From a virus: a stretch of DNA of 54,966 nucleotides. Below, piece after piece: positions 7,418 through 54,966 of this stretch; the first letter of the stretch is position 1; every line of letters begins with the position of its first letter. Position numbers and translations under genes: made by a program. The notes under the pieces are model-generated. The model was not told where the DNA came from. It worked only from the letters and a program-made list of their open reading frames with translations, and did not search any database. The stretch covers positions 1 through 54,966 of the IMG/VR virus record IMGVR_UViG_3300020156_000036. The stretch is one strand, 5' to 3'.

Positions 7418-7801
7418 TTACCACCCACCTGTTATGAGCAACAGAGCTTCATCGATTGTCTTAGCCCGCTGCACGAGTGGATGATACTGCCACGTTCCAA
7501 AATCGGCATTATCACCCACAACAACTACTTGCTTGCCGAGACCAAGAGCAATACCGGCCTCAACCAAGGCACCACGCAGCTTGTCTTCAGGCTCAGCGTA
7601 AACCAGCACAGCGTCTGCTTTGCGAACGTCGGCTACATCGTGGTGCCAGAACGCGACAGCATTCTCAGGCGTATCGGGCACGTGGCCTTCAATGTCTGGC
7701 CAACGAGCCGTGAAGAATACATCTTGCCGTTCTTCGCGTAGGCGTATCCACATCGGACCATGACGAAGCTTCGACGCGGTATACACAGAAGCCATTCTCA
7801 T
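7418..7801 (-). CDS. Nucleoside 2-deoxyribosyltransferase-like protein
   Basis: 127 residues. This family exchanges or hydrolyses the base of deoxynucleosides or their monophosphates. The N-terminus MRMASVYTASKL is followed by WIRLREE and FTARWPDIEG. The core has VRKADAVLVYAEPEDKLRGA and then VEAGIALGLGKQVVVVG. The order of strand, D-x-x-x-A-D, then E-x-G-x-A-x-x-x-G-K is the usual Rossmann-like pattern of these enzymes. ATG 7801 overlaps the ligase stop (ATGA), so the two are coupled. It may work with the modified-nucleotide genes of the right arm. Confidence 0.75.
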   Translation of the reverse strand: MRMASVYTASKLRHGPMWIRLREERQDVFFTARWPDIEGHVPDTPENAVAFWHHDVADVRKADAVLVYAEPEDKLRGALVEAGIALGLGKQVVVVGDNADFGTWQYHPLVQRAKTIDEALLLITGGW

Positions 7802-8706
7802 GACAGCAAATCCAACGGGTCCCTGCGACCCAGTGCCACGGGGTGTCGTGCCTTGTCCTTGACGCCGACAGGGAAGTGCTTGTACTTCCAGACCTTACCC
7901 AGCTCCCGTTCACGATGGCGCCAAATCTCATCACGCTCAGCCGCGGTGAAGCCGGTTCCGAGCTTGACCTCACGTCCGTCGTGGATGTCCACTCCAACGA
8001 GCTTACCCATCGTGCCGCCTGGCACCATGTTCTCTTTGTGAGATGACCGAGCCCCGTAGCCCAGTTCATTCTCCTTGGATTCATTCATGTTGCGCATGAG
8101 CTCTTCCACGCCCGTGACCCGCATCTCAGAGTCAACGAAGCGCTTCAGCTTACACTTGCCACCCTCCTTGGGCGTTGACCGACCAAACTTGTAGGTCGTG
8201 TCAGGTCGAGCGATAATCAGGCCTTCGTAACCAGCGGCGAGGTAGCTCTCCTCACACAGGTAGAGCTGGTCGACCGAGGTAACCATAATCTGCTCAAGCA
8301 CCTTTACGCGTCCATTGGACTCCAACCTACCGAATCTGTGGGCGAAGTCCTGACCATTGAGGTCCCAGCGATCGAACACGTAGAACGTGAAGTCTGGTTC
8401 ACCGTCGTACGACATGACTTGGCTCATTGTTGTGCGATAGCAATCCTTGGCTGTCGGGTCACCGACAATGAGCTCACCGTCGTAGCCGTGCAGATTCTGT
8501 TGTTGGTGAAAAGCCCCACCAATCCCAGCGATAGCATTCTGCACAAACTTATTGCGGATAGGTTTCAGCGAACGGCTTAGCATCTGCTGGCCGTCAACCA
8601 GGCCACGAACACCGTCCAGCTTGGGCGAGACGAACAGAAATCCTGCGGCCTTTAAGTAGGCGTGGATATCGTCCTCGGTCGGCGTCGCACAGAGGTTCGG
8701 TCTCAT
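7798..8706 (-). CDS. ATP-dependent DNA ligase
   Basis: 302 residues, the length of a minimal phage ligase. The adenylation motif KLDGVR is at residues 29-34 with the nucleophilic lysine at 29. Other motifs in order are an SRSLKPIRN region (Ia), YDGELIVG (III), FYVFDRWD (IIIa), EGLIIARPD (IV) and KCKLKRF (V). The C-terminal part (MGKLVGVDIHDGREVKLGTG) is a short OB fold. It seals nicks during replication. Linked to its neighbours by ATGA overlaps on both sides. Confidence 0.92.
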   Translation of the reverse strand: MRPNLCATPTEDDIHAYLKAAGFLFVSPKLDGVRGLVDGQQMLSRSLKPIRNKFVQNAIAGIGGAFHQQQNLHGYDGELIVGDPTAKDCYRTTMSQVMSYDGEPDFTFYVFDRWDLNGQDFAHRFGRLESNGRVKVLEQIMVTSVDQLYLCEESYLAAGYEGLIIARPDTTYKFGRSTPKEGGKCKLKRFVDSEMRVTGVEELMRNMNESKENELGYGARSSHKENMVPGGTMGKLVGVDIHDGREVKLGTGFTAAERDEIWRHRERELGKVWKYKHFPVGVKDKARHPVALGRRDPLDLLS

Positions 8707-19732: not shown

Positions 19733-19834
19733 TAGGTGAAATGAACTCGACGCTTGGCCACTTACTACGTGCCATGCTCCCGTGTGTATAGAGTCTATAA
19801 GGAGTGCCTCCGGGGCATGCGTCACTCTCCGCAG

Positions 19835-19894: not shown

Positions 19895-20863
19895 GTGGCA
19901 AACGAACGGGGCAAGTCGATCGACAACACCCACCTGTCGATCGATCAAGCGGAGGCTCGTGGGTTTATCCACCGCGACTACATCGCTCACTGCCTTCGCT
20001 GGACTCACGTCGCGAAGTATATGCAGAAGAGCACTGTCTATCCGCGTGCCAGGGTCCTTGACATCGGTTGTGGCGTCGACTTGCCGCTGGCTCGTCTGCT
20101 CTATTCCTCTCGCCTGATCGTGGAGGACTACGTCGGCGTGGAATACAACAAGTCGCACAAGTTCAAGACCGAACCGTTCCACACCGGCAAGTTCCCGATG
20201 TCTGCCTACGGCTCCATCGATTTCGCGCACCCTGACCAGGTGATCATCGCCAACCCGCCTGAAGGTAGCAAGCTCACCGACAACCGCGTGATGTGGTATG
20301 GCGGTGACAACGAGCAAGCCTTCCACCGCCTGCCCAACGTTTTCGTTTCCTTCGAGATGCTGGAACACATCGAACCGGGGCATGCTCGCGCGGTTATGCG
20401 CAAGGTCTATGAGATGATGGTCGCCTGCCGAGAGGACACCGGCGACAATCCCATCGGCTTCTTCAGCACACCTTGCTGGAGTCCGCGGGTTGGCGCCGCT
20501 GCTAACCACGTCAACGAGATGCTGTACGAAGCACTCGGCGCAATGTTCGAAGACCTGGGCTTCGTCATCGAAAATGTCGCTGGGACTTTCGCCAGTCAGT
20601 CCGACTACAAGGGCCAGCTGATCGCCGACGGACACCTGTCGGCCTACAACGCGCTGTCTGAACACTATGACAGCAACTACCTGGCGACCATCTTCGCACC
20701 GCTCTATCCTCACTTGGCTCGTAACGCCCTTTGGACTCTGCGCGTTCCGAAGCCCGGCCAGGAATACGAGCGCAAGTTCCTGCCGCTCGCTGAGGTCGCT
20801 GGACCTTGGACTTCGTCGGCTCACTGGGAAGACCTGGCCTCGGATGAAGCCTATGGAAGCTGA
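19895..20863 (+). CDS. SAM-dependent methyltransferase-like protein
   Basis: 322 residues from GTG 19895, chosen for AAAGGA 7 nt upstream and because the promoter's -10 (19858-19863) lies inside the longer reading. A class I methyltransferase core is visible: motif I ARVLDIGCGVDLPLARLL (about residues 51-68), an acidic residue after the next strand (DYVGVEY), and motif IV-like VIIANPPEGSKL. EMLEHIEPGHARAVM follows as in many small-molecule or nucleotide methyltransferases. No target-recognition domain is seen. Position at the head of the nucleotide operon suggests a DNA or nucleotide modification role, but the substrate is unknown. Confidence 0.7.
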   Translation: MANERGKSIDNTHLSIDQAEARGFIHRDYIAHCLRWTHVAKYMQKSTVYPRARVLDIGCGVDLPLARLLYSSRLIVEDYVGVEYNKSHKFKTEPFHTGKFPMSAYGSIDFAHPDQVIIANPPEGSKLTDNRVMWYGGDNEQAFHRLPNVFVSFEMLEHIEPGHARAVMRKVYEMMVACREDTGDNPIGFFSTPCWSPRVGAAANHVNEMLYEALGAMFEDLGFVIENVAGTFASQSDYKGQLIADGHLSAYNALSEHYDSNYLATIFAPLYPHLARNALWTLRVPKPGQEYERKFLPLAEVAGPWTSSAHWEDLASDEAYGS

Positions 20864-21788
20864 GCTCATCAACATTCAGAAACTGCCCGATGAACTTAAC
20901 GGTCAGGCTCTGGCAATCTGCATAAAGAACGTGCAAGGTTTCAACGAGCTGAGCGCCGGCACCAAGACTGATATCCACCGCGCAGTGGCTGAGGCCTTGG
21001 CTGGCGTTCACCATTCGGAGAAGGTTCAGACCGAACCACATCGAGTCTGCCAGAACTACTCCCAGATGCGCAATCAGGAAATGGCTTCGCGTATTGTGGG
21101 CATCGTCATGCCTCACTGGCGTGGCTCCGTGAAGACTGCTGCAGCTGCTCAGGTCCAGCTTATGCTGGACCGTGAGCTGACCCGCATGTGGAACGACATC
21201 GAGTCCTTCCACCACAAGTTCCGGCTCGATTATGGTGGACCGCCTCGGCCACTGCCCTTTGAGCTGGCACAGTTTCGTATCAAGTTCTTGCAAGAGGAAC
21301 TGGACGAATACGCGGCGGCGTATGAGGCTGATGACAGTCTTGAAGCACGTGAACAAATGCTGGATGCACTCGTAGACCTCGTCTACGTCGCTCTGGGTAC
21401 AGCCTATCTGCATGGGTTCAACTTTGCAGAAGCCTGGCGACGGGTCCAAGTCGCGAACATGTCCAAGGTTCGAGTCGAACGTGCTGAGGACAGCAAACGT
21501 GGAAGCAAGTTCGATGTCGTTAAACCTGAAGGCTGGAAGCCTCCTTGCCACCTTGACCTCGTGGGCGTCTTGGTTGCGCAGACTGGCGTGGCCCCTGCCG
21601 AAGGACCTGAAGCCCGACGAGCCGGGGATAACCCTGATACTGGGTCGGGGGACAGTGTTTCTGGATGGTCAGCCGATTGGGTTGGCTCAGGAAGTGAGCT
21701 TCGAGACGCACAGCTCCAAGCCGGGCAAGGCGACGAGGAAGGCGAATCTGAAACCGGACAACCAGCCGGGGACCACGACCTCTTCTGA
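20844..21788 (+). CDS. MazG-like nucleotide pyrophosphohydrolase
   Basis: About 314 residues; start ATG 20844 or 20853, inside the end of the previous gene. The MazG/all-alpha NTP-PPase signature lies in the centre: FLQEELDEYAAAYEADD with paired Glu/Asp, then ALVDLVYVALGTAYLHG and FAEAWRRVQVANMSKVR, followed by SKRGSKFDVVKPEGWKPP, the usual family end. The N-terminal 120 residues are an unrecognised helical domain. The last 80 residues are low-complexity and overlap the next gene in another frame. The enzyme would hydrolyse (d)NTPs to monophosphates and so adjust the nucleotide pool. Confidence 0.85.
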   Translation: MKPMEAELINIQKLPDELNGQALAICIKNVQGFNELSAGTKTDIHRAVAEALAGVHHSEKVQTEPHRVCQNYSQMRNQEMASRIVGIVMPHWRGSVKTAAAAQVQLMLDRELTRMWNDIESFHHKFRLDYGGPPRPLPFELAQFRIKFLQEELDEYAAAYEADDSLEAREQMLDALVDLVYVALGTAYLHGFNFAEAWRRVQVANMSKVRVERAEDSKRGSKFDVVKPEGWKPPCHLDLVGVLVAQTGVAPAEGPEARRAGDNPDTGSGDSVSGWSADWVGSGSELRDAQLQAGQGDEEGESETGQPAGDHDLF

Positions 21789-22071
21789 CGGCTTTAAGCC
21801 GACAGTAGGTAAGCAGTTCTTTGAGTGTCCCTGCTTCAGCGCTCGACCCAAGGTGGCCAACGACCGTGAGGCTTGGCTGGCCGGTCACATGTATAATGAG
21901 ATACGTGACGAACTCAACCGTCGTGGTATCTGTCCCAATCGAGGCATGGTGATCGCGCTTAAGATCGCAGCAATCATGGCTCGCAACATTGAACCTGAGG
22001 ACCGAGCCTGGGTCGAGCCCCAGCTGCACGAGTTCTTTGACCATGAACTAGCCCACAACCCGAGCATGTAA
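21514..22071 (+). CDS. Hypothetical protein overlapping the MazG gene
   Basis: 185 residues from ATG 21514 (GGAAGCAAGTTCG upstream), so its first 275 nt lie within the MazG reading in another frame. The part after residue 40 is convincing (GITLILGRGTVFLDGQPIGL, then a Cys pair in FECPCFSARP). The C-terminal helix region contains NRRGICPNRGMVIALKIAAI. A start further downstream is possible. No family recognised. Confidence 0.6.
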   Translation: MSLNLKAGSLLATLTSWASWLRRLAWPLPKDLKPDEPGITLILGRGTVFLDGQPIGLAQEVSFETHSSKPGKATRKANLKPDNQPGTTTSSDGFKPTVGKQFFECPCFSARPKVANDREAWLAGHMYNEIRDELNRRGICPNRGMVIALKIAAIMARNIEPEDRAWVEPQLHEFFDHELAHNPSM

Positions 22072-22072
22072 G

Positions 22073-23062
22073 ATGAAGCACCCTGTGATCGTTCTCGAGG
22101 GCGCTGACTGCGCCGGTAAATCCACTTTGGGTGAGTTCTTGCGAGGCAAGTGGGGCGGCGCTCTCATCCACGCTACGTATCGCTTCCCCAACCAAATGTT
22201 CGACTACCACACGGCGCTGCTGGAGAAGGTGTTAAAGCTCCGTGAGCAAGGTCCAGTCATCCTTGATCGTTGGTGGCCGTCAGAGCTGATATATGCTGAC
22301 GTATTTCGCGGTGGTTCTCGCTGGCCCATGGGTGGTCGAATGCTGGACCGTGTCGCTCTGAAGCACGGGTTCATCTATGTCGGCTGCATTCCATCTGACG
22401 ACGGCTGGCATACGCGTGTGTTCAACGAACGGGCCGAGGCTGGCGGTGAGATGTATACTCGCAACGAAGGCGTCGCAGACCAGTATAAACAGTGGCATCA
22501 CCGTATGGTATGGCGCCCTGACTACCGGCGTTATGATGTCTGCACCCATGGCCAAGATATGTCAGGTTACGCCGACATTCTCCTCCAAGCTCATGAGACA
22601 GTTCAGCGAGACCTGCCGCCCCAGTTTCTTGATCGGACTTATCGCCAGATCGCCGGCAATCCTCGTTCACCACTGGTCATGATACTGGGTGAACGGTCCA
22701 ATCCGAAAGGCAGACACCACGTCTGGCCGTTCTTCGAACACGCTCATTCGTCTTTATGGGTGACTCAGGCCGCGGCAAACGCCGGTCTGAAAGAAGAACG
22801 CATCTGCTGGTATAACGTGCTGCCAGAGGACGGTAATGATCGCTACGTGGTTAGTGGGCTGCGAACAGTCTATGATATCGTAAAACCGCATTATGTGTTG
22901 GCTCTGGGTCGAACGGCTCAGATGATGTGCGTAAAGGCTGGTATGATGGTACCGGAACATGGCTATCGAGCACTGCCCCATCCCGCATACGTCAAGCGGT
23001 TCCAGAACGGCAACATGTCGAGTTACATCGATATGTTTGAAACCATGATCAGAGAAGGTTAA
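22073..23062 (+). CDS. Deoxynucleotide kinase fused to a uracil-DNA-glycosylase-like domain
   Basis: 329 residues. Residues 1-200 are a thymidylate-kinase-type P-loop domain: EGADCAGKST (Walker A, about residues 9-18) and VILDRWWPSELIYAD (DR-type motif). Residues 205-329 look like a family 4/5 UDG fold: VMILGERSNP, WPFFEHAHSSLW, ICWYNVLP (Asn), YVLALGRTAQ and LPHPAYVKRF (His-Pro). The two activities in one chain suggest handling of an unusual deoxynucleotide. It starts 1 nt after the previous stop and is followed by the ThyA-like gene. The kinase call is secure; the glycosylase-like call is by motif order only. Confidence 0.8.
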   Translation: MKHPVIVLEGADCAGKSTLGEFLRGKWGGALIHATYRFPNQMFDYHTALLEKVLKLREQGPVILDRWWPSELIYADVFRGGSRWPMGGRMLDRVALKHGFIYVGCIPSDDGWHTRVFNERAEAGGEMYTRNEGVADQYKQWHHRMVWRPDYRRYDVCTHGQDMSGYADILLQAHETVQRDLPPQFLDRTYRQIAGNPRSPLVMILGERSNPKGRHHVWPFFEHAHSSLWVTQAAANAGLKEERICWYNVLPEDGNDRYVVSGLRTVYDIVKPHYVLALGRTAQMMCVKAGMMVPEHGYRALPHPAYVKRFQNGNMSSYIDMFETMIREG

Positions 23063-23065
23063 ACC

Positions 23066-23878
23066 ATGATCGGATACGACACTGCAGATCACGTCTGGCT
23101 CGACCTGCTCGATCACATTAACCGGGTTGGCGAGCCGCATGCTCCGCGTGGTATCGGCACCCGCGAAATACTAGGTTATCAAACCCGAGTCGATATGCGG
23201 TTCCCAATCGTTACGAACCCTGACCGCAAGATGGGTTATAAGTTCATGGCTGCCGAGGCTGCCTGGATACTCTCGGGTGATAATCGTGTATCGACCATCA
23301 GTCCGTTCTCCCGGGCCATCTCCTCATTCAGCGATGATGGCGAAACATTCTTCGGAGCTTATGGCCCCAAGATCATCGACCAGTTGGCCTACGCCGTGAA
23401 GACACTTGAGCAGGACCCAGACTCCCGCCAAGCGGTTATCAACATCTGGCGCGAGAATCCGCCGAAGTCGAAAGACATTCCCTGCAGCATCTCGGTTCAG
23501 TTTCTGATCAGGAACAACAAGCTGCACTGTCAGTACACCATGCGCTCTTCCGACGCGTGGTTAGGCTGGGTTTACGACGTCTTCAACTTCAGCATGCTGA
23601 GTGGCGTCGTGCTGCTAGGACTTAGCGAGAGGTTCCCACAACTGGAACTGGGTCACCTTACACTCACGGCTGGGTCGCAGCACCTTTACGACCGAGACCG
23701 GGAAGGTTATTCTGCTGTGTTGACCGGCAGTCGCGAACGCTGGCGGTATTTCCCCTTCAACCCTCGTGCCCAGTTTAGGCATGGCAATCACCTTGTGTCG
23801 GTTCTGTGGAATGCAGCTCACGGCGGTGGCGCACTTCAGCTGGCTCAGACTGGCTGGAACCTTGACGAGGTGAACTGA
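23066..23878 (+). CDS. ThyA-family enzyme, probable dCMP hydroxymethylase
   Basis: 270 residues of thymidylate synthase fold. Key residues: R121 (SRQAV), catalytic C140 (DIPCSISVQF), R160-S-S-D163 (MRSSDAWLG) and H-x-Y in QHLYDRD. E. coli ThyA has Asn 31 residues after its cysteine; this protein has Asp (D171, VYDVFNF), which is the residue that marks dCMP hydroxymethylases such as T4 gp42. A separate ThyX further down can make dTMP, so this copy is free for another reaction. Product would be 5-hydroxymethyl-dCMP. Possible alternative: dUMP hydroxymethylase. Confidence 0.8.
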   Translation: MIGYDTADHVWLDLLDHINRVGEPHAPRGIGTREILGYQTRVDMRFPIVTNPDRKMGYKFMAAEAAWILSGDNRVSTISPFSRAISSFSDDGETFFGAYGPKIIDQLAYAVKTLEQDPDSRQAVINIWRENPPKSKDIPCSISVQFLIRNNKLHCQYTMRSSDAWLGWVYDVFNFSMLSGVVLLGLSERFPQLELGHLTLTAGSQHLYDRDREGYSAVLTGSRERWRYFPFNPRAQFRHGNHLVSVLWNAAHGGGALQLAQTGWNLDEVN

Positions 23879-24366
23879 TGAGACCATCATCTGATGAAAA
23901 CTACATCGAACAAGCTCTCGTCATCGCTAAACGTGCGACCTGCGCTCGTCGATCGGTGGCTTGTATCCTTGTGGATGTTCACAAGCAGATTCTATCCACC
24001 GGTTATAACGGTCCCGCAGCTGGTGAAGCACACTGCATTGATCACCCTTGCGCGGGCGCTCATCTGGCTTCTGGAACTGGTCTCAGCGTGTGTGAAGCTA
24101 TTCACGCTGAAGCCAACGCCCTCCTCCAGTGCCGAGATAAGTTCGCCATTCATACCGCCTACGTAACCACACCGCCATGCCGCGACTGCGTAAAGCTGTT
24201 GATGAATACAGGGTGCCGTCGCATCGTGTTCGTGGGCGACTATCCGCAGATGGAAGAGGCGCGAGAACTGTGGCAGCGCAACAACCTGGAACATCCTCTA
24301 TCGACCATAGACCCTACAATCACCTATCCTGATAAACGCAATCGTGAATGGGTCCGCCTTGGTTAA
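23878..24366 (+). CDS. dCMP deaminase
   Basis: 162 residues. Zinc and catalytic motifs HAEANALL (His and proton-shuttling Glu) and TTPPCRDCVK (two Cys) are in the family order. RRSVACILVDVHKQILSTGY is the usual N-terminal strand pair. It converts dCMP to dUMP, the substrate of ThyX in this operon. It starts with TGATG coupling to the hydroxymethylase-like gene, so both compete for dCMP. Confidence 0.92.
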   Translation: MRPSSDENYIEQALVIAKRATCARRSVACILVDVHKQILSTGYNGPAAGEAHCIDHPCAGAHLASGTGLSVCEAIHAEANALLQCRDKFAIHTAYVTTPPCRDCVKLLMNTGCRRIVFVGDYPQMEEARELWQRNNLEHPLSTIDPTITYPDKRNREWVRLG

Positions 24367-26446
24367 GGTCCGGAAAGCCAAAGCGTACCGACATCCTGAT
24401 CAGCTTCCACTGATCACGCCTGATGCTGACTGGGTGGCACCTGAACAAGCAGATTGGATTGATTTCCGAGACTGCAAGTACTTGGGTCTTGATACCGAGA
24501 CCCATGACCCTGGTCTGACCGAGCACGGCCCGGGGTTTATCCGTGGCGACGCTTATCTATGCGGCTTCTCGTTGGCTGATGAGAATGGTCGTAAGATATA
24601 TCTGCCTGTCGGTCACGCCGAGGGCAATGTTGACAAGCAAAAAGCCCTCGAATATCTGAGATATCAACTCAAGCGACCTGGCCTCGTCAAGGTTGCTGCC
24701 AACGCCATGTATGAGCTCGAGGTTTTGTGGTCAGAAGGTCTGGAGATACCGGGCGAGCTTCGTGATGTACAGATTGCCGAACCCTTGCTTGATGAAGACA
24801 AGGCTACAGGATACAGCCTGGATGTCTTGGCAAACGAATATCTTGGCCGGCGTAAGAACGAGCAAAAGTTGAAGGAGGCTGGCGCCGCTTACGGCGGGGA
24901 TAAGGCGAACGTTAAGGCGATGGCGGCGATTATGCCTGCCAAGTATTGGGGTGAGTACGGTGAGGATGACGCTGACCTTCCTGTCCAGATTTATCTTAAG
25001 CAGTTAGAGCGCATCAAGGCTGAAGACCTACAAAGTATCTTCGACCTAGAAACCCGACTTCAACGCGTACTCTTTAAGATGCGCTTGCATGGGGTGGCTG
25101 TCGATCTAGACTACGCTGAGCGCTTGGCTAAGCAGACTCGCGAAGAAGAAGACAGACTTCTGAAATGGCTTCACCGAGAAGCTCACTGGGACTTCAACCC
25201 ATTCAGTGGCAGTGATTGTCATGCGGTGATGCTGAAACGCGGCTTTGAAGGTCCATACAACAAGCCTACGAAGAAGCATCCAGGCGGCGCGCCTTCGATC
25301 ACCAATGAGTGGCTGCAGGAGATTGGTCATGTCGACCCGGACACGAAACAGCCTTCCGGTTCCGGTGACGAGCTGGCGGCTAACCTATATGAGCTACGAC
25401 GCATCAACAAGATGCGGAAAGATTTCCTTGAGGGCGCTATTCTCGAGCGAAACGTGTGTGGTCGACTACACCCTCAATGGCATCAGCTTCGCGAGTATGA
25501 TGAAGAGGGTAAACGCACTCGCGGAACTCGATCGGGACGGATTGCTGCAAGTAAGCCGAATCTTACGAATGTCCCGGCACGAGACCCGGTGTGGGGGCGT
25601 CGCGTCCGTGGATGTTTCGTGGCTGACAAAGGAAAGCGATGGTTCAAGTTTGACTATTCCCAGCAAGAACCCCGCTTCCTGCTCCATTTCGCCTACTTGA
25701 TGGACCAACTGCCAAGGCATCTTGGCGGTGAGCCAATGCCTGGTGCTGCTGAGGCTGTTAAACGCTGGTGCGACGACCCCACGATCGACTATCACCAGAT
25801 GGTTGCCGATCTGATTGAGGAACGGTCTGGTAAGCCAATGAAGCGCCGTCCCGCTAAGGATATCAACCTTGGCGGTGCGTACGGCATGGGTTTCATGAAG
25901 CTGTTCAACAAGCTCAAGGTTCACTTCCCAGGCTTGACGACTGACATGTGTAAGGAAATCTTGGCTACCTACCATGAAGGTGTGCCTTACGTAAAGTCGA
26001 TGAGCAACTCCTGTATGAGGCGTGTTGAGGAGAAAGGCTTCATCCGAACCATTCTCGGTCGACGGCGCCGGTTCAACCGATGGGAGAAGAAGAGCTGGGG
26101 CAATAAGGATGACGGCTACAGCTGGACTTACGGCAGTTATGAAGAAGCGGTCGCCGAGTGGGGTGCCGAGAATGTTCAACGTGCTGGCATTCACAAGGCT
26201 TTGAACGCGCTTATTCAAGGCAGCGCCGGTGATCAAATGAAACTGACGCTGTGTCTACTGGATGACGAGGGGCTCACTCCTCAAATCCAGGTGTATGACG
26301 AACTAGACGGTTCATGGGAAACTCCCGAAGAAGTTCGACGCATCGTGCACATCATGACGCATTCTGTGGAACTTGTCGTACCTCACCTCGTGGAACCTGA
26401 GGTTGGTTCTAGCTGGGGTAATCTGAAGGATTGGGTTGATGGGTGA
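24344..26446 (+). CDS. Family A DNA polymerase with 3'-5' exonuclease
   Basis: 700 residues, replicative polymerase. The exonuclease ExoI motif LGLDTETHD has D50 and E52. The polymerase motifs are A, KFDYSQQEPRFLL (about residue 433), B, KDINLGGAYGMGF (about 505; the usual KxxxF/Y helix) and C, VYDELDG (about 651). No 5'-nuclease domain, as in other phage enzymes of this type. Start GTG 24344 overlaps the deaminase end by 23 nt with no clear ribosome-binding site; the downstream TTG at 24359 is an alternative. Confidence 0.93.
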   Translation: MNGSALVKVRKAKAYRHPDQLPLITPDADWVAPEQADWIDFRDCKYLGLDTETHDPGLTEHGPGFIRGDAYLCGFSLADENGRKIYLPVGHAEGNVDKQKALEYLRYQLKRPGLVKVAANAMYELEVLWSEGLEIPGELRDVQIAEPLLDEDKATGYSLDVLANEYLGRRKNEQKLKEAGAAYGGDKANVKAMAAIMPAKYWGEYGEDDADLPVQIYLKQLERIKAEDLQSIFDLETRLQRVLFKMRLHGVAVDLDYAERLAKQTREEEDRLLKWLHREAHWDFNPFSGSDCHAVMLKRGFEGPYNKPTKKHPGGAPSITNEWLQEIGHVDPDTKQPSGSGDELAANLYELRRINKMRKDFLEGAILERNVCGRLHPQWHQLREYDEEGKRTRGTRSGRIAASKPNLTNVPARDPVWGRRVRGCFVADKGKRWFKFDYSQQEPRFLLHFAYLMDQLPRHLGGEPMPGAAEAVKRWCDDPTIDYHQMVADLIEERSGKPMKRRPAKDINLGGAYGMGFMKLFNKLKVHFPGLTTDMCKEILATYHEGVPYVKSMSNSCMRRVEEKGFIRTILGRRRRFNRWEKKSWGNKDDGYSWTYGSYEEAVAEWGAENVQRAGIHKALNALIQGSAGDQMKLTLCLLDDEGLTPQIQVYDELDGSWETPEEVRRIVHIMTHSVELVVPHLVEPEVGSSWGNLKDWVDG

Positions 26447-26687
26447 TATGGTCGAAGACTTCAAGCTTCTGAAACAACGCGACAAAGAACGGCGCGAGCG
26501 AAACTGGCGCAATGCTGATTCAGAAGGCTGGACTCAACACACTCCGTACCATTGGTCACGACAGCTTAACGGCAAGCGTCTTGACTACTGGCCTAGTCGA
26601 AACAAGTTTCAATACGATGGTGGCCGCGTTATGGTAGGCGACGTCGTTGGTTTTATTCGCAAAAGAGAGAAGAACAATGCAGGTTAA
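26439..26687 (+). CDS. Hypothetical protein, 82 aa
   Basis: ATG 26439 lies inside the polymerase end and follows AAGGA by 8 nt. Basic N-terminal helix (KLLKQRDKERRERNWRNADS), then WSRQLNGKRLDYWPSRNKFQ, a pattern seen in many short phage proteins with the strand order F-Q-Y-x-G-x-x-x-x-G-D-V. It overlaps ThyX by 11 nt. Function unknown. Confidence 0.75.
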   Translation: MGDMVEDFKLLKQRDKERRERNWRNADSEGWTQHTPYHWSRQLNGKRLDYWPSRNKFQYDGGRVMVGDVVGFIRKREKNNAG

Positions 26688-27357
26688 GTACGTGGACCAT
26701 CTTGGCAGTGACCTGTTTGTTGCCAACGCTGCTCGCAAGTCTTTTGGAGCTGGTTATGAAACATGGTCAGATGTCCCTCGAACAGCTCGCGGTCGTTCCG
26801 ATGGTGAGCTTGTGGCAAGCCTTGCACGTGATGGCCACCTGCTCCCCTTCCGACATCCACACATCACGATTGAATGCGATGCGCCGATACCTGTGGCTCG
26901 GCAACTCGGCAAACATCAGGTCGGCCTGGATTGGTCAGAGATTAGCCGACGATACAAGACGAAGGGCATCGAGTTCTACCGCATTGGAACGCGTTGGCGT
27001 GGCGACGTAAAGGACCGGCGCCAAGGTAGTGGTGGGCTGATTGACCCTGAAACTCAGCTAGTGCTTGAGTCAATCGAAACCCACGTTATCAGAACCTGTG
27101 TCGAAGCCTATGAAGAGGCCTTGACACTAGGAGCTAGCCCAGAACAAGCCCGTTTTCTGCTACCGCAATCCATGGAGGTCTCATGGACCTGGACAGGCAG
27201 CCTGTTGGCTTTCGCGCATCTCTATAACCAGCGCACCCATCCTGATGCTCAGACGGAGACTCGTGACTTTGCTGAGCAATGCGGCCAGATCATGGCAAGG
27301 CATTTCCCTGTGTCGTGGCTTGCTCTCACTGGTGTTGAGTATGCGAACCTGGACTGA
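26677..27357 (+). CDS. thyX: Flavin-dependent thymidylate synthase
   Basis: 226 residues from ATG 26677. It makes dTMP from dUMP with FAD and methylene-tetrahydrofolate. LPFRHPHITIECDAPIPVAR is the typical start of the core. The ThyX signature is ARQLGKHQVGLDWSEISRRY (about residues 68-87), with Lys-His-Gln where most enzymes have Arg-His-Arg. Later motifs QARFLLPQSMEVSWTWTGSL and LYNQRTHPDAQTETRDFAEQ fit the family. Its presence next to a ThyA homologue implies that the ThyA copy does something else. Confidence 0.9.
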   Translation: MQVKYVDHLGSDLFVANAARKSFGAGYETWSDVPRTARGRSDGELVASLARDGHLLPFRHPHITIECDAPIPVARQLGKHQVGLDWSEISRRYKTKGIEFYRIGTRWRGDVKDRRQGSGGLIDPETQLVLESIETHVIRTCVEAYEEALTLGASPEQARFLLPQSMEVSWTWTGSLLAFAHLYNQRTHPDAQTETRDFAEQCGQIMARHFPVSWLALTGVEYANLD

Positions 27358-27577: not shown

Positions 27578-27983
27578 ACAGGATTTCGCCAATGACCATG
27601 TCTTGCCCCGCTTACGAGCCAAAGGCCACGCTGTCCATGTACAGAATAGCGCTGAGACTGGCACTCCGGACATCAACTACGCTGTCTTCCCCAGGCAAGG
27701 CTGGATTGAAGTTAAGGTTGCCAAGTCCGGTTGGCTATACTTTGAAAAGTTCCAGATACCTTGGATACGGCGCCGTCACCGGGCATTCCCATTCAGTGTA
27801 TGGGTACTGGCAAGGATTGGACCAGAGGCTGCACTATATAGCGCTGAGGCGATTCTTGGGGCTGACCGCGAGCCTTACCGCAAGTGGACACGATGTCGCG
27901 TCGATGGCCTCGAAAGCGTTGCACGAACAGGGCTTTCTGACGATTGGTCACACATAATGTCGGTACTTACCGACCCTTCGTAG
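27570..27983 (+). CDS. VRR-NUC-type nuclease
   Basis: 137 residues from GTG 27570; an ATG at 27534 would add 12 residues inside the previous gene. The catalytic core reads HVQNSAETGTPDINYAVFPR, GWIEVKVAKSGWLYFEKFQI: G-x-P-D followed by E-V-K is the PD-(D/E)xK signature of VRR nucleases. Such small enzymes act on branched or flap DNA in phage replication or recombination. The TAG stop is followed immediately by the TTTACA of the next promoter. Confidence 0.75.
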   Translation: MLEQDFANDHVLPRLRAKGHAVHVQNSAETGTPDINYAVFPRQGWIEVKVAKSGWLYFEKFQIPWIRRRHRAFPFSVWVLARIGPEAALYSAEAILGADREPYRKWTRCRVDGLESVARTGLSDDWSHIMSVLTDPS

Positions 27984-28011
27984 TTTACATCGCGTCCAGA
28001 GACGCTATAAT
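27984..28011 (+). promoter_or_regulatory. Strong promoter before gene 28040
   Basis: TTTACA (27984-27989), 16-bp spacer, TATAAT (28006-28011). The -10 is a perfect consensus. It is followed by CACGTGGAGCAGAAAC before ATG 28040, the plus-strand version of the recurrent leader. Confidence 0.75.
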
Positions 28012-28039
28012 CGAACAATCATACACGTGGAGCAGAAAC

Positions 28040-28663
28040 ATGACCGAACCTTTGGATGCCGTACAACAGGCAATCGCTGATGCTGCTGGTGGCGTGGCTA
28101 AGGTCGACGATAAGGTCAAGTCCAGCATCAGTCAACTTGCTGTACGTCAACTGGACTTGATGCGCCGCAAGAGTGAAACCGAAGCGCAGCTGAAACGTAT
28201 CGATGAAGACCTGAAGCGCATTTCAGAGTTTGATCTGCCCAATGCCATGGCTGAAGCCGGCATGAAGACGTTCGAACTGCTGGACGGCTCCAAGATCGGC
28301 GTAAAGCGAGTTTATGCTGCCGGTATCAGGGTTGAGAACCGACCCGAAGCCTTCGCGTGGATGCGCGAGCGTGGTCATGACTCCTTGATCAAGACCGAGG
28401 TTCAGGTGCCCCTTGGTAAAGGCGCTCACGATATTGCTGAACAGATTCTCGAGGCACTTCGTGAGAAGTTCCCCGACTATTCTGGGAAGCTAGACGAATC
28501 TGTTCACTGGCAGACGCTGCGTGCGTTCGTTAAGGAACAGATCGAGGCCGAGGAAGCGGCCGCTGCTGGGGGAGACACCGTAGACGACCCGCTGCCCCGA
28601 GAACTTCTGGGCGTCTATATCATCGATAAGGCGGAAATCACTCTGCCTAAGAAAAAGGACTAA
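28040..28663 (+). CDS. Conserved phage protein of replication region, 207 aa
   Basis: Start ATG 28040 follows the leader. Residues 35-70 form a long helix (QLDLMRRKSETEAQLKRIDE), then DLPNAMAEAGMKTFELLDGS, a strand with KIGVKRVYAAGI, and RPEAFAWMRERGHDSLIKTE. The C-terminus is VHWQTLRAFVKEQI followed by an acidic linker. This architecture is common in siphovirus and podovirus replication modules without an assigned function. High expression is likely from the consensus promoter. A role in DNA binding with the following gene is an inference. Confidence 0.75.
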   Translation: MTEPLDAVQQAIADAAGGVAKVDDKVKSSISQLAVRQLDLMRRKSETEAQLKRIDEDLKRISEFDLPNAMAEAGMKTFELLDGSKIGVKRVYAAGIRVENRPEAFAWMRERGHDSLIKTEVQVPLGKGAHDIAEQILEALREKFPDYSGKLDESVHWQTLRAFVKEQIEAEEAAAAGGDTVDDPLPRELLGVYIIDKAEITLPKKKD

Positions 28664-52838: not shown

Positions 52839-54314
52839 TCAGGCTCCAGCGTCAGGCTCTTGTTCAGAGGGTTTGGGTTCCGGCTCCGTCCCAGTAGGAG
52901 GCTTGGTTTCTTCAGACTTCTTAACAGGTCCAGGGCCAGTCTTTTCACCGTTTTCCTCGAAAGCTGCTTCAAAGCCCGGGAACTGACCATCTTCGATCAG
53001 TTGGTTCGCCTGAGTGCGAGCCAGGACTTCCATCGGAATGAGATTAGTCTCAGCGATCGTGCGAATCGTATCCGCACGGGTTTTCGAGACAGCTGCAGCA
53101 TCTTTCTCACTCATCTGCCACAGCGGCGCCCACACGTAATACATATCACGCGGCGATTTACCCAAAGCAGAGCGCTTAACCATCTCATCCAACGGCGCTA
53201 TGGCAGGGCTCAACTCACTTTTTTGTTCTGATTTGACTCGATCGTAATAGACGCGCTCTTCCGTATCGCCGGTGGCGTTAAGGCCTTGAGGCGACAGACC
53301 AACCATCAGGGTTGCTGGAATAGACAGAGCTCCAGAAGCGATCTGCAGATACAGCTTCAGAATATCCGGCAATTGCGTAAAGTTGATTTGTTTGCGTTCC
53401 CACTGCTCTTCAGAATCCAGGATGAGAGTGTTCTGCGAAGACTTGGCGGCCGCGGCGTACATAAAGCGCTTGGTGAGGCGTTCCGTATAGTCCGCGGTCG
53501 ACAGGTGTTCCATCAGGTTCGGAATACGCACGACATCGATCTTGGCCTCTTGCACCAGGCCCGCAATACCAGCCTGAGCCACGGCGGCGTGCATGATCGC
53601 GTCCTTCACCACCTGCAGAACCGAGTCAGACCAGAAATCGTTCTCGCCCTTAGCCAAACGACGATGCGGAACCTGATTGCCGAAGAAGCGGATAACTCGC
53701 GAGGGGTGGATGCGCGGGTAACGCACGCTACGAGCACTGCCCTGATTGGTCAGCTGCAGTTCCCAGTACATGGGTTCACCAAACCAAGGCGAAAGCAGGT
53801 CGGTGTCTAGCCCAATCGGACGAAGGTCATAGCGAGAGACCGGCAGGAGATACTTCAGACCACCCCTCGTGACCTGAGAGGGGATGAGAGGCTCGTCCGG
53901 GTTCCCAGGACCACCAATGATAATAGCCCCACCCCCGTAGAGTCGACCGAGGATACGAGCCTTCTTAATCGCAGCCCACATCCCCAGCCGAGCTTCCTCG
54001 AGCTCGATCTTTTCGATGTTGTCTTTCTTGGTTTGCCAGTTACGACCTTGGCGAACCGAGTCCTCCGCTGGCAACAGAACAGCCTTGCGGGCAATCCAAT
54101 CGCCACGGAACGAGTTCTCGAGCTCGACTTCGCCCATCGGAGCGAATACAAACTGATTGGCCGTATTCTTGTCATGCGACATGCCAAGACCTGAGACCAG
54201 GTTCAGCATAGAGTCGAAGAGCATCACACCCTTGTCAGCCGCGGCTTGGGCTCCACCAGGCGGCAAGCGCTGGGCAGTGGCCGGGTCGACGTCGGTGTAT
54301 GGAGTATCGGTCAT
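52839..54314 (-). CDS. Portal protein, DUF1073-like
   Basis: 491 residues. MLFDSMLNLVSGLGMSHDKN, then LENSFRGDWIARKAVLLPAE, ILGRLYGGGAIIIGGPGN, YPRIHPSRVIRFFGNQVPHR and VGLSPQGLNATGDTEERVYY fit DUF1073 portal proteins. The C-terminal tail is acidic and low-complexity (KKSEETKPPTGTEPEPKPSE). It forms the dodecameric DNA gate. ATG 54314 overlaps the TerL stop (ATGA). Confidence 0.92.
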   Translation of the reverse strand: MTDTPYTDVDPATAQRLPPGGAQAAADKGVMLFDSMLNLVSGLGMSHDKNTANQFVFAPMGEVELENSFRGDWIARKAVLLPAEDSVRQGRNWQTKKDNIEKIELEEARLGMWAAIKKARILGRLYGGGAIIIGGPGNPDEPLIPSQVTRGGLKYLLPVSRYDLRPIGLDTDLLSPWFGEPMYWELQLTNQGSARSVRYPRIHPSRVIRFFGNQVPHRRLAKGENDFWSDSVLQVVKDAIMHAAVAQAGIAGLVQEAKIDVVRIPNLMEHLSTADYTERLTKRFMYAAAAKSSQNTLILDSEEQWERKQINFTQLPDILKLYLQIASGALSIPATLMVGLSPQGLNATGDTEERVYYDRVKSEQKSELSPAIAPLDEMVKRSALGKSPRDMYYVWAPLWQMSEKDAAAVSKTRADTIRTIAETNLIPMEVLARTQANQLIEDGQFPGFEAAFEENGEKTGPGPVKKSEETKPPTGTEPEPKPSEQEPDAGA

Positions 54315-54966
54315 GCCACATTCGCCAAGGTATAGGTTGAGCCAGTGAGCAGAAGCTCGGTGAAGCCCCAGATCATTGAGTCAGCACGGTCCGGAGACTT
54401 ACCGCCCTCATAGCCAGAGCTTGAGAAGTTGCAGAGTTGTTCTTCCAGGTCAGGGAAATAACCGACATGGAAGATTTTTCCGATCGGTTGGTTGTTCACC
54501 GCCTTCATCGGGTCACCGTACAACAGTGCCACAGGCTCAGCTCGTTGAGCCTTGCCGCGAGACGCTGTAATGATCTTTACAGGAGCAGCGGGCCAGTGGG
54601 CTCGAATGGTCGCTTCCACCATTGCGCCACCATAGTTACGTTCAGCGATGATGACGTCTGCGCCGTATTTGTCGTAAAGTTGTTTGGCCTTGATGGCCCA
54701 TTGTTTCGGTGAGTATCGGCCCGAGGCGTCTTCAAGCAGATAACCACGCTTCTGGTGGTCCTTGGCCGTGACGGTAATACCGATTTCATCTGAACGGTAA
54801 TCCTCCTCGCCTTCACAACCGGACGGGTCGATGTTCACCGAGATACGGGCCAGGAATGGCACCTGCTCAATCTTGCGGCGGTGACGATCGATCAGGTCTT
54901 GTGTCCAGAGTGCGTTGTCGACCTGCGCCAGGAACTTACCCTCGAGGAAGCGCTGACGGTCCTTAA
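54311..54966 (-). CDS. terL: Terminase large subunit, C-terminal nuclease part
   Basis: Continuation of the gene at 1-700. An open frame runs from base 54966, giving KDRQRFLEGKFLAQVDNALW, then the RNase H-like nuclease domain: VNIDPSG (first Asp), VIIAERNYGG (Glu) and SPDRADSMIWGF (last Asp). The TGA at 54313-54311 overlaps the portal ATG. Confidence 0.96.
   Translation of the reverse strand, partial: KDRQRFLEGKFLAQVDNALWTQDLIDRHRRKIEQVPFLARISVNIDPSGCEGEEDYRSDEIGITVTAKDHQKRGYLLEDASGRYSPKQWAIKAKQLYDKYGADVIIAERNYGGAMVEATIRAHWPAAPVKIITASRGKAQRAEPVALLYGDPMKAVNNQPIGKIFHVGYFPDLEEQLCNFSSSGYEGGKSPDRADSMIWGFTELLLTGSTYTLANVA
54958..54966. repeat. 9-bp terminal direct repeat, right copy
   Basis: Identical to bases 1-9; see the left copy. 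Both copies fall in terL in the same phase. Confidence 0.85.

Follow-up and report, generated by a model that had tools for sequence, protein, structure and literature searches.

Organization of the operon and flanking genes

The window, by which we mean the whole stretch of DNA analyzed, is an IMG/VR virus record of 54,966 bp with a G+C content of 55%. It belongs to a virus of bacteria, a tailed phage judging from its tail, portal, head-protease, and terminase genes. The terminase large subunit (54311-54862, minus strand) is represented by its C-terminal part only and lies at the contig end, which implies either a truncated or a circularly permuted record. A tightly packed operon on the plus strand, between 19.9 and 27.4 kb, houses the genes from a methyltransferase (MT) through the flavin-dependent thymidylate synthase ThyX, including a thymidylate synthase (TS) family gene that is predicted to encode a dCMP 5-hydroxymethylase (HMase) (Table 1).

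Table 1. Positions of the genes and codons discussed in the text, with the supporting evidence
Feature	Position	Strand	Evidence or remark
MT, class I SAM-dependent methyltransferase, putatively tailoring 5-hydroxymethylcytosine (5hmC, hmC)	19895..20863	+	PF13489; conserved motif; linkage to HMase
MazG/PRA-PH nucleotide pyrophosphohydrolase, start uncertain	20844..21788	+	PF01503, E 8e-9; phrog_671, E 1e-23
Overlapping ORF, function not assigned	21412..22071	+	Common only to nearest relative L002; start maybe near 21514
Thymidylate-kinase-like P-loop kinase with UDG-superfamily-like domain	22073..23062	+	phrog_761, E 2e-12; PF03167, E 1.9e-5, residues 195-315; alignment
HMase, predicted dCMP 5-hydroxymethylase, TS family	23066..23878	+	PF00303, E 2.4e-26; MilA, E 5e-25; residue alignment; tree
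D137 codon; counterpart of T4 D145 (activates water in hydroxymethyl transfer)	23474..23476	+	Alignment; T4 role from PMC6400193
D171 codon; counterpart of N177 in E. coli ThyA and D179 in T4 (specificity for cytosine)	23576..23578	+	Alignment; PMC8670742
dCMP deaminase	23878..24366	+	PF00383, E 1.6e-18; phrog_174, E 1.8e-35
Family A DNA polymerase with 3'-5' exonuclease	24344..26446	+	PF00476, E 7.6e-42; downstream of the module at the majority of MT loci
ThyX, FAD-dependent thymidylate synthase, dTMP supply	26677..27357	+	PF02511, E 2.5e-33; TIGR02170 above cut-off
ATP-dependent DNA ligase with OB_2 domain	7798..8706	-	PF01068, E 4.6e-10; PF14743, E 1.6e-6

An earlier sequence-only reading had placed a dCMP deaminase and a deoxynucleotide kinase in the same operon as the ThyA homologue and had noted a MazG-like hydrolase. 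Profile searches recover all three, the deaminase directly after the HMase gene and the kinase, with its UDG-like C-terminal domain, before it. The same reading had set ThyX beside the ThyA homologue. A separate ThyX is indeed encoded on the plus strand, but the two genes do not adjoin, as the polymerase gene lies between them and ThyX is about 2.8 kb away. A search of the window record found no dihydrofolate reductase (DHFR) gene. Both hydroxymethylation and ThyX spare folate oxidation.

Several further features of the region were observed. The 219-aa ORF at 21412-22071 shares 377 bases, read in a different frame, with the end of the MazG gene and may be a genuine overlapping gene. The kinase-UDG fusion carries the motifs GERSNPKGR...WPFF and HPAYVKRF and is frequent among related phages; in others the kinase stands alone. 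MazG and kinase form a single ORF in six relatives (L020, L024, L047, L050, L052, and L058), which supports a shared nucleotide pathway. Two conserved genes resembling Pam3 gp33 and gp34 (27944-28663, PF23984; 28670-29509, PF23977) lie downstream of the module at most MT loci. An NCBIfam DpoZ match to the polymerase, a potential signal of 2-aminoadenine, was rejected, as it scores far below the cut-off and the record lacks a PurZ-type gene. Both domains of the ligase, which is of the ATP-dependent type with OB_2, appear on the MetaGPA list for modified-cytosine contigs (PMC8670742).

The ThyA homologue is a predicted dCMP 5-hydroxymethylase

The HMase ORF encodes 270 amino acids from an ATG start preceded by AGAAGG. 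Its key residues are E64, R121, D137, C140, S161, D163, D171, H206, and Y208, of which C140 and E64 correspond to the catalytic pair of the TS superfamily (C146 and E58 in E. coli). The sequence-only reading had drawn attention to an Asp exactly 31 residues after the catalytic Cys, and the alignment bears out both positions, with D171 aligning to E. coli ThyA N177 and T4 D179. Among 72 relatives, the catalytic Cys is present in 72/72, and the D171 column holds Asp in 71 with one gap, that is, in every sequence that covers it, which argues against a chance occurrence. The column three residues before the Cys (D137), an addition to that earlier observation, is Asp in 70/72 and Asn in 2/72.

The two positions (Cys-3 and Cys+31) were compared in an alignment of enzymes of known product, with phage AXL1, a relative of the 5-methylcytosine (5mC) phage Xp12, as the stand-in for Xp12 (MT664984). 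The window HMase, T4 gp42, and MilA all show D/D. SPO1 gp29, a dUMP hydroxymethylase, shows D/N with a one-residue insertion, E. coli ThyA (methyl, uracil) shows L/N, and AXL1 shows N/D. In T4 dCMP hydroxymethylase, D145 activates water from its place three residues before the catalytic Cys, as judged from a ternary structure, and both D145N and D179N abolish activity (PMC6400193). The water-coordinating Ser94 of T4 corresponds to G97 in the window, Thr in MilA, and Ala in SPO1; judging from these sequences, Ser94 is T4-specific rather than family-defining, since MilA and SPO1 gp29 also do without Ser.

According to work cited in PMC8670742, Asp at position 177 on its own confers cytosine preference only, and a thymidylate synthase with the N-to-D change yields 5-methyl-dCMP. 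This favors reading the ThyA homologue as a dCMP 5-methylase that produces 5mC, as in Xp12, and MazG and dCMP deaminase genes adjoin the TS gene in Xp12-like phages too. However, the window enzyme has Asp rather than the Asn of AXL1 at Cys-3, has lost the Trp80 equivalent that AXL1 keeps, is encoded in a record that lacks the DHFR gene adjoining the TS gene of AXL1, and branches in the tree apart from E. coli ThyA and AXL1. Together with the restriction data described below, these differences make a 5mC-producing enzyme very improbable.

Among PDB entries, the HMase matches MilA most closely (E 5e-25, 41% of 190 residues identical). MilA is a CMP hydroxymethylase, so that an enzyme acting on the ribonucleotide CMP, as in mildiomycin biosynthesis, also has to be weighed. 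We consider this more improbable still: R121 and S161 match the deoxy-preferring enzymes, as opposed to the ribo-preferring K133 and A176 of MilA (PMC5175136), and the gene lies in a DNA precursor operon. An ordinary thymidylate synthase, the name given to the protein in AXL3 and most records in line with its PF00303 membership, is the least credible identity in view of D171 in place of Asn177, D137, a C terminus that does not align with the TS-type folate tail of E. coli ThyA, the separate ThyX, and a best score of 84 bits against an NCBIfam TS equivalog cut-off of 327, all such cut-offs being far above the scores reached.

In summary, the D/D pair, the absence of Trp80, the ThyA tail, and DHFR, the MilA match, the tree, and R121/S161 lead us to predict with high confidence that the ThyA homologue is a dCMP 5-hydroxymethylase and neither a thymidylate synthase nor a 5mC-making methylase. 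As such, it is a new example of an already known enzyme type.

The operon starts with a phage methyltransferase resembling HEN1 and UbiG

The MT, the second addition to the earlier observation, is the first gene of the operon. Its longest ORF (369 aa) starts from TTG at 19754, but relatives begin at the GTG at 19895, which has AAAGGA upstream and gives a protein of 322 aa. The match to PF13489 (E 6.7e-6) falls just under the family cut-off, profile searches reach Hen1 and UbiG, and the AlphaFold (AF2) model (pLDDT 86) has a fold that resembles small-molecule methyltransferases. Four residues, E201, E204, H205, and H252 in the numbering of the 369-aa ORF, are invariant in 127/127 members and form an ExxEH...H motif. 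ExxEH is also found in UbiG-type enzymes, which act on other substrates. HEN1 has the ExxEH motif together with a downstream His (PMC1397878), and we infer that H252 is the counterpart of HEN1 H860.

Two other assignments were considered and rejected. The (D/N/S)PP(Y/F/W) motif IV of DNA N4/N6 amino-methyltransferases is not conserved in the MT family alignments, which speaks against an amino-methyltransferase, and the cysteine of the STPC segment is not invariant, which speaks against a C5 methyltransferase. The natural reading of the motif is that the acceptor would be a hydroxyl, for which the hydroxymethyl group of 5hmC is the obvious candidate.

The methyltransferase is linked to hydroxymethylases of several lineages

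To place the MT in a wider context, viral contigs were scanned for its family, and the best 80 of 302 relatives were fetched, giving 79 new loci. Such scans favor the relatives that best match the query patterns, and the linkage figures apply to these rather than to very distant MTs. An HMase gene is found in the stretch for 68/79 loci and elsewhere on the same record for 4 more; the remaining 7 loci end at a contig edge on the relevant side. MazG is present in 76/79. A second scan with the distant MT of AXL3 as query returned 22 loci, of which 21 have an HMase and one is truncated by its contig. A search of 50,697 phage records recovered the MT from four distinct phages, each of which also encodes an HMase. 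Only four MT loci were found in 84,980 bacterial and archaeal genomes: L211 and L212 each share their contig with a D/D HMase, and the remaining two come from short contigs. L211 had appeared to be an MT without an HMase until the latter was located on the same 305,838-bp contig. All of the sufficiently long contigs that were checked, about 95 in number, show the linkage, and the order MT-MazG-kinase-HMase-deaminase recurs in AXL3, PW916, ct3Et533, and many contigs.

The converse fails, as many phages with an HMase have no MT. One-sided linkage of this kind fits an accessory step that follows hydroxymethylation. In addition, the partner is a T4-gp42-type HMase in seven MT loci (L096, L105, L114, L120, L127, L133, and L142). 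The L114 enzyme is 50% identical to T4 gp42, with Asp at both -3 and +31, and the four of these seven partners included in the tree group with T4 gp42 (SH-aLRT 100). The HMase on the L211 contig represents a further sequence type. The association with HMases of different lineages indicates that the MT follows the chemistry and not one gene lineage.

The T7-like Pelagibacter phage HTVC119P (L068, 8475-9341) encodes an enzyme of the same HMase clade, annotated as thymidylate synthase, next to a small kinase. It has neither MT nor MazG near this gene, and its DNA may hold plain 5hmC.

Alternative genes occupy the position of the methyltransferase

In two loci, L015 (5238-7031) and L046 (5410-7095), a carbamoyltransferase (PF16861/PF02543; PF16861 E 1e-24 and 3e-23, respectively) lies directly upstream of MazG-kinase-HMase, in the position of the MT. 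This carbamoyltransferase family has been shown to carbamoylate 5hmC (PMC8670742). A search with PF16861 found no carbamoyltransferase in the window record. In about 35 other loci, a family of approximately 340 aa takes the same slot or lies close by. Its model (pLDDT 83) gives weak matches to GT-B glycosyltransferases (best E 1.3e-3, none <0.001), and T4 alpha-glucosyltransferase is among the fold matches (TM 0.50), so that our best guess from the predicted structure is a GT-B glycosyltransferase. The MT never co-occurs with the slot carbamoyltransferase or the GT-B-like protein.

Members of the 340-aa family include L054 (2686-3711), with relatives in L053, L057, and L185-L208. Nearby genes encode a C5 cytosine methyltransferase (PF00145), a UDP-glucose dehydrogenase, and an NAD-synthase-like protein, and the locus may constitute a further hmC hypermodification module.

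These observations bear on what the MT modifies. It could merely reside in the operon and methylate something else, such as RNA 3' ends like HEN1, a small molecule, or a host target, leaving the DNA with plain 5hmC. The profile similarity to HEN1 and UbiG, the small-molecule methyltransferase fold, and the many HMase phages without an MT beside the HMase, such as HTVC119P, are consistent with this. Against it stand the pairing with HMases of at least two unrelated lineages and a slot shared, without co-occurrence, with GT-B-like proteins and a carbamoyltransferase family that acts on 5hmC. On balance, we regard an unrelated MT target as unlikely and hold that the MT probably acts on hmC. O-methylation to 5-methoxymethylcytosine is our tentative proposal for the product; the MT may instead form other methylated hmC products or have another substrate. 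Methoxymethylcytosine is not mentioned in the literature searched.

Restriction resistance of phage AXL3

The cultured phage AXL3 shares the gene order of the window and is the only proxy for its phenotype. Its published restriction panel was compared with 5mC DNA at Eam1105I, which recognizes the AhdI site, and at KpnI. Of 37 enzymes, AXL3 DNA is cut by two whose sites consist of A and T only, and it resists 35/35 enzymes with G/C-containing sites, including Eam1105I and KpnI; its authors left the modification open and named gp28 a thymidylate synthase (PMC7504290). AXL1 DNA is cut by Eam1105I and KpnI (PMC9206674), and the 5mC DNA of Xp12 is cut by AhdI and KpnI (PMC7653180). Therefore, the AXL3 base is probably not plain 5mC, a further point against a dCMP 5-methylase. 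If each enzyme had an 82-85% chance of being resisted, complete resistance to 35/35 would arise with a chance of 0.1-0.3%, in a rough calculation for enzymes that are not a random sample. This hints, with little weight, at a modification beyond plain 5hmC.

Proposed pathway

From the observed sequence identity, active-site residues, conserved operon, MT-HMase linkage, and MT fold, we infer the enzyme activities, the order of the steps, whether the MT works on the nucleotide or on DNA, and the final base. In the proposed scheme, Cys140 would attack C6 of dCMP, Asp171 would select cytosine, and methylene-THF would provide the carbon. Water activated by Asp137, as by T4 Asp145, would then quench the methylene intermediate, so that the base receives a hydroxymethyl group (5hm-dCMP) rather than a methyl group. 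The adjoining kinase would phosphorylate 5hm-dCMP, dCTP would be broken down by MazG to dCMP for reuse, and dCMP deaminase and ThyX would supply dTMP without making dihydrofolate. The phage polymerase would build DNA with 5hmC replacing C, after which the MT would act on the hydroxymethyl group, with O-methylation to 5-methoxymethylcytosine as the most likely reaction.

We assign this explanation as a whole a probability of roughly 0.8, and the presence of an hmC-derived base in the virion DNA appears very likely. The sequence-only reading had proposed 5hmC or a further derivative; D171, D137, the similarity to MilA, the conserved operon, and the AXL3 resistance are all in agreement with it, and the further derivative now has a putative dedicated enzyme in the MT.

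The new part is the MT, which had not been connected with such enzymes before and accompanies them in more than 100 phages; it is phage-specific, tied to HMases of unrelated lineages, and located in the slot that elsewhere holds proven or likely 5hmC-tailoring enzymes. We propose that the MT-linked module represents a new form of hmC hypermodification. Slightly more tentative than the product itself is the broader idea that this widespread phage module makes an undescribed base, hmC O-methylated by a HEN1/UbiG-like MT (5-methoxymethylcytosine or another methylated hmC), as one of three or more finishing cassettes (methyl, carbamoyl, and glycosyl) that can replace each other on a common HMase operon. 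It would predict a new DNA base in many phages from the environment as well as in cultured AXL3 and PW916, where the genes bear thymidylate-synthesis annotations. If true, capping hmC with a small methyl group would protect the DNA from restriction and hide it from nucleases or glycosylases that are specific for 5hmC.

Comparison with known systems

The T-even 5hmC pathway shares with the window the catalytic Cys and Glu of gp42, the Asp residues at -3 and +31, dCMP deaminase, and the pyrophosphohydrolase and kinase roles. The T4 gp42 and window enzymes are approximately 31% identical over 176 residues, and the pyrophosphohydrolase is of the MazG type in the window and of the gp56 type in T4. 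Unlike the T-even phages, no known glucosyltransferase was found among the window genes scanned, and the MT is present instead. MilA of mildiomycin biosynthesis is the closest solved relative and has the same D/D pair, whereas the window enzyme has R and S of the deoxy type in its sugar/phosphate pocket and a phage DNA-precursor context.

The Xp12/AXL1 5mC system has the cytosine-type Asp, MazG, and dCMP deaminase in common with the window, but differs in the Asn at Cys-3, the retained Trp80, and, in AXL1, the adjoining DHFR gene. The MT family search of phage records found no gene of the window kind in AXL1. Similar to HEN1 and UbiG O-methyltransferases, the MT has the ExxEH motif IV, a subsequent STP segment, and a downstream conserved His. 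However, it has no RNA-binding domains, and its phage-specific family has its own invariant N-terminal D-x-T-x-L...DY..H..RW motif.

AXL3 gp27-gp31 plus gp50 show the same MT-MazG-kinase-HMase-deaminase order and ThyX, and AXL3 DNA is restriction-resistant; the MT proteins are about 30% and the HMases 50% identical. Finally, the MetaGPA 5hmC carbamoyltransferase module (PMC8670742) shares the Asp177-type TS, PRA-PH, dCMP deaminase, and DNA ligase domains. It is found in L015 and L046 with an HMase of the window's clade, and the window has the MT in the corresponding slot instead.
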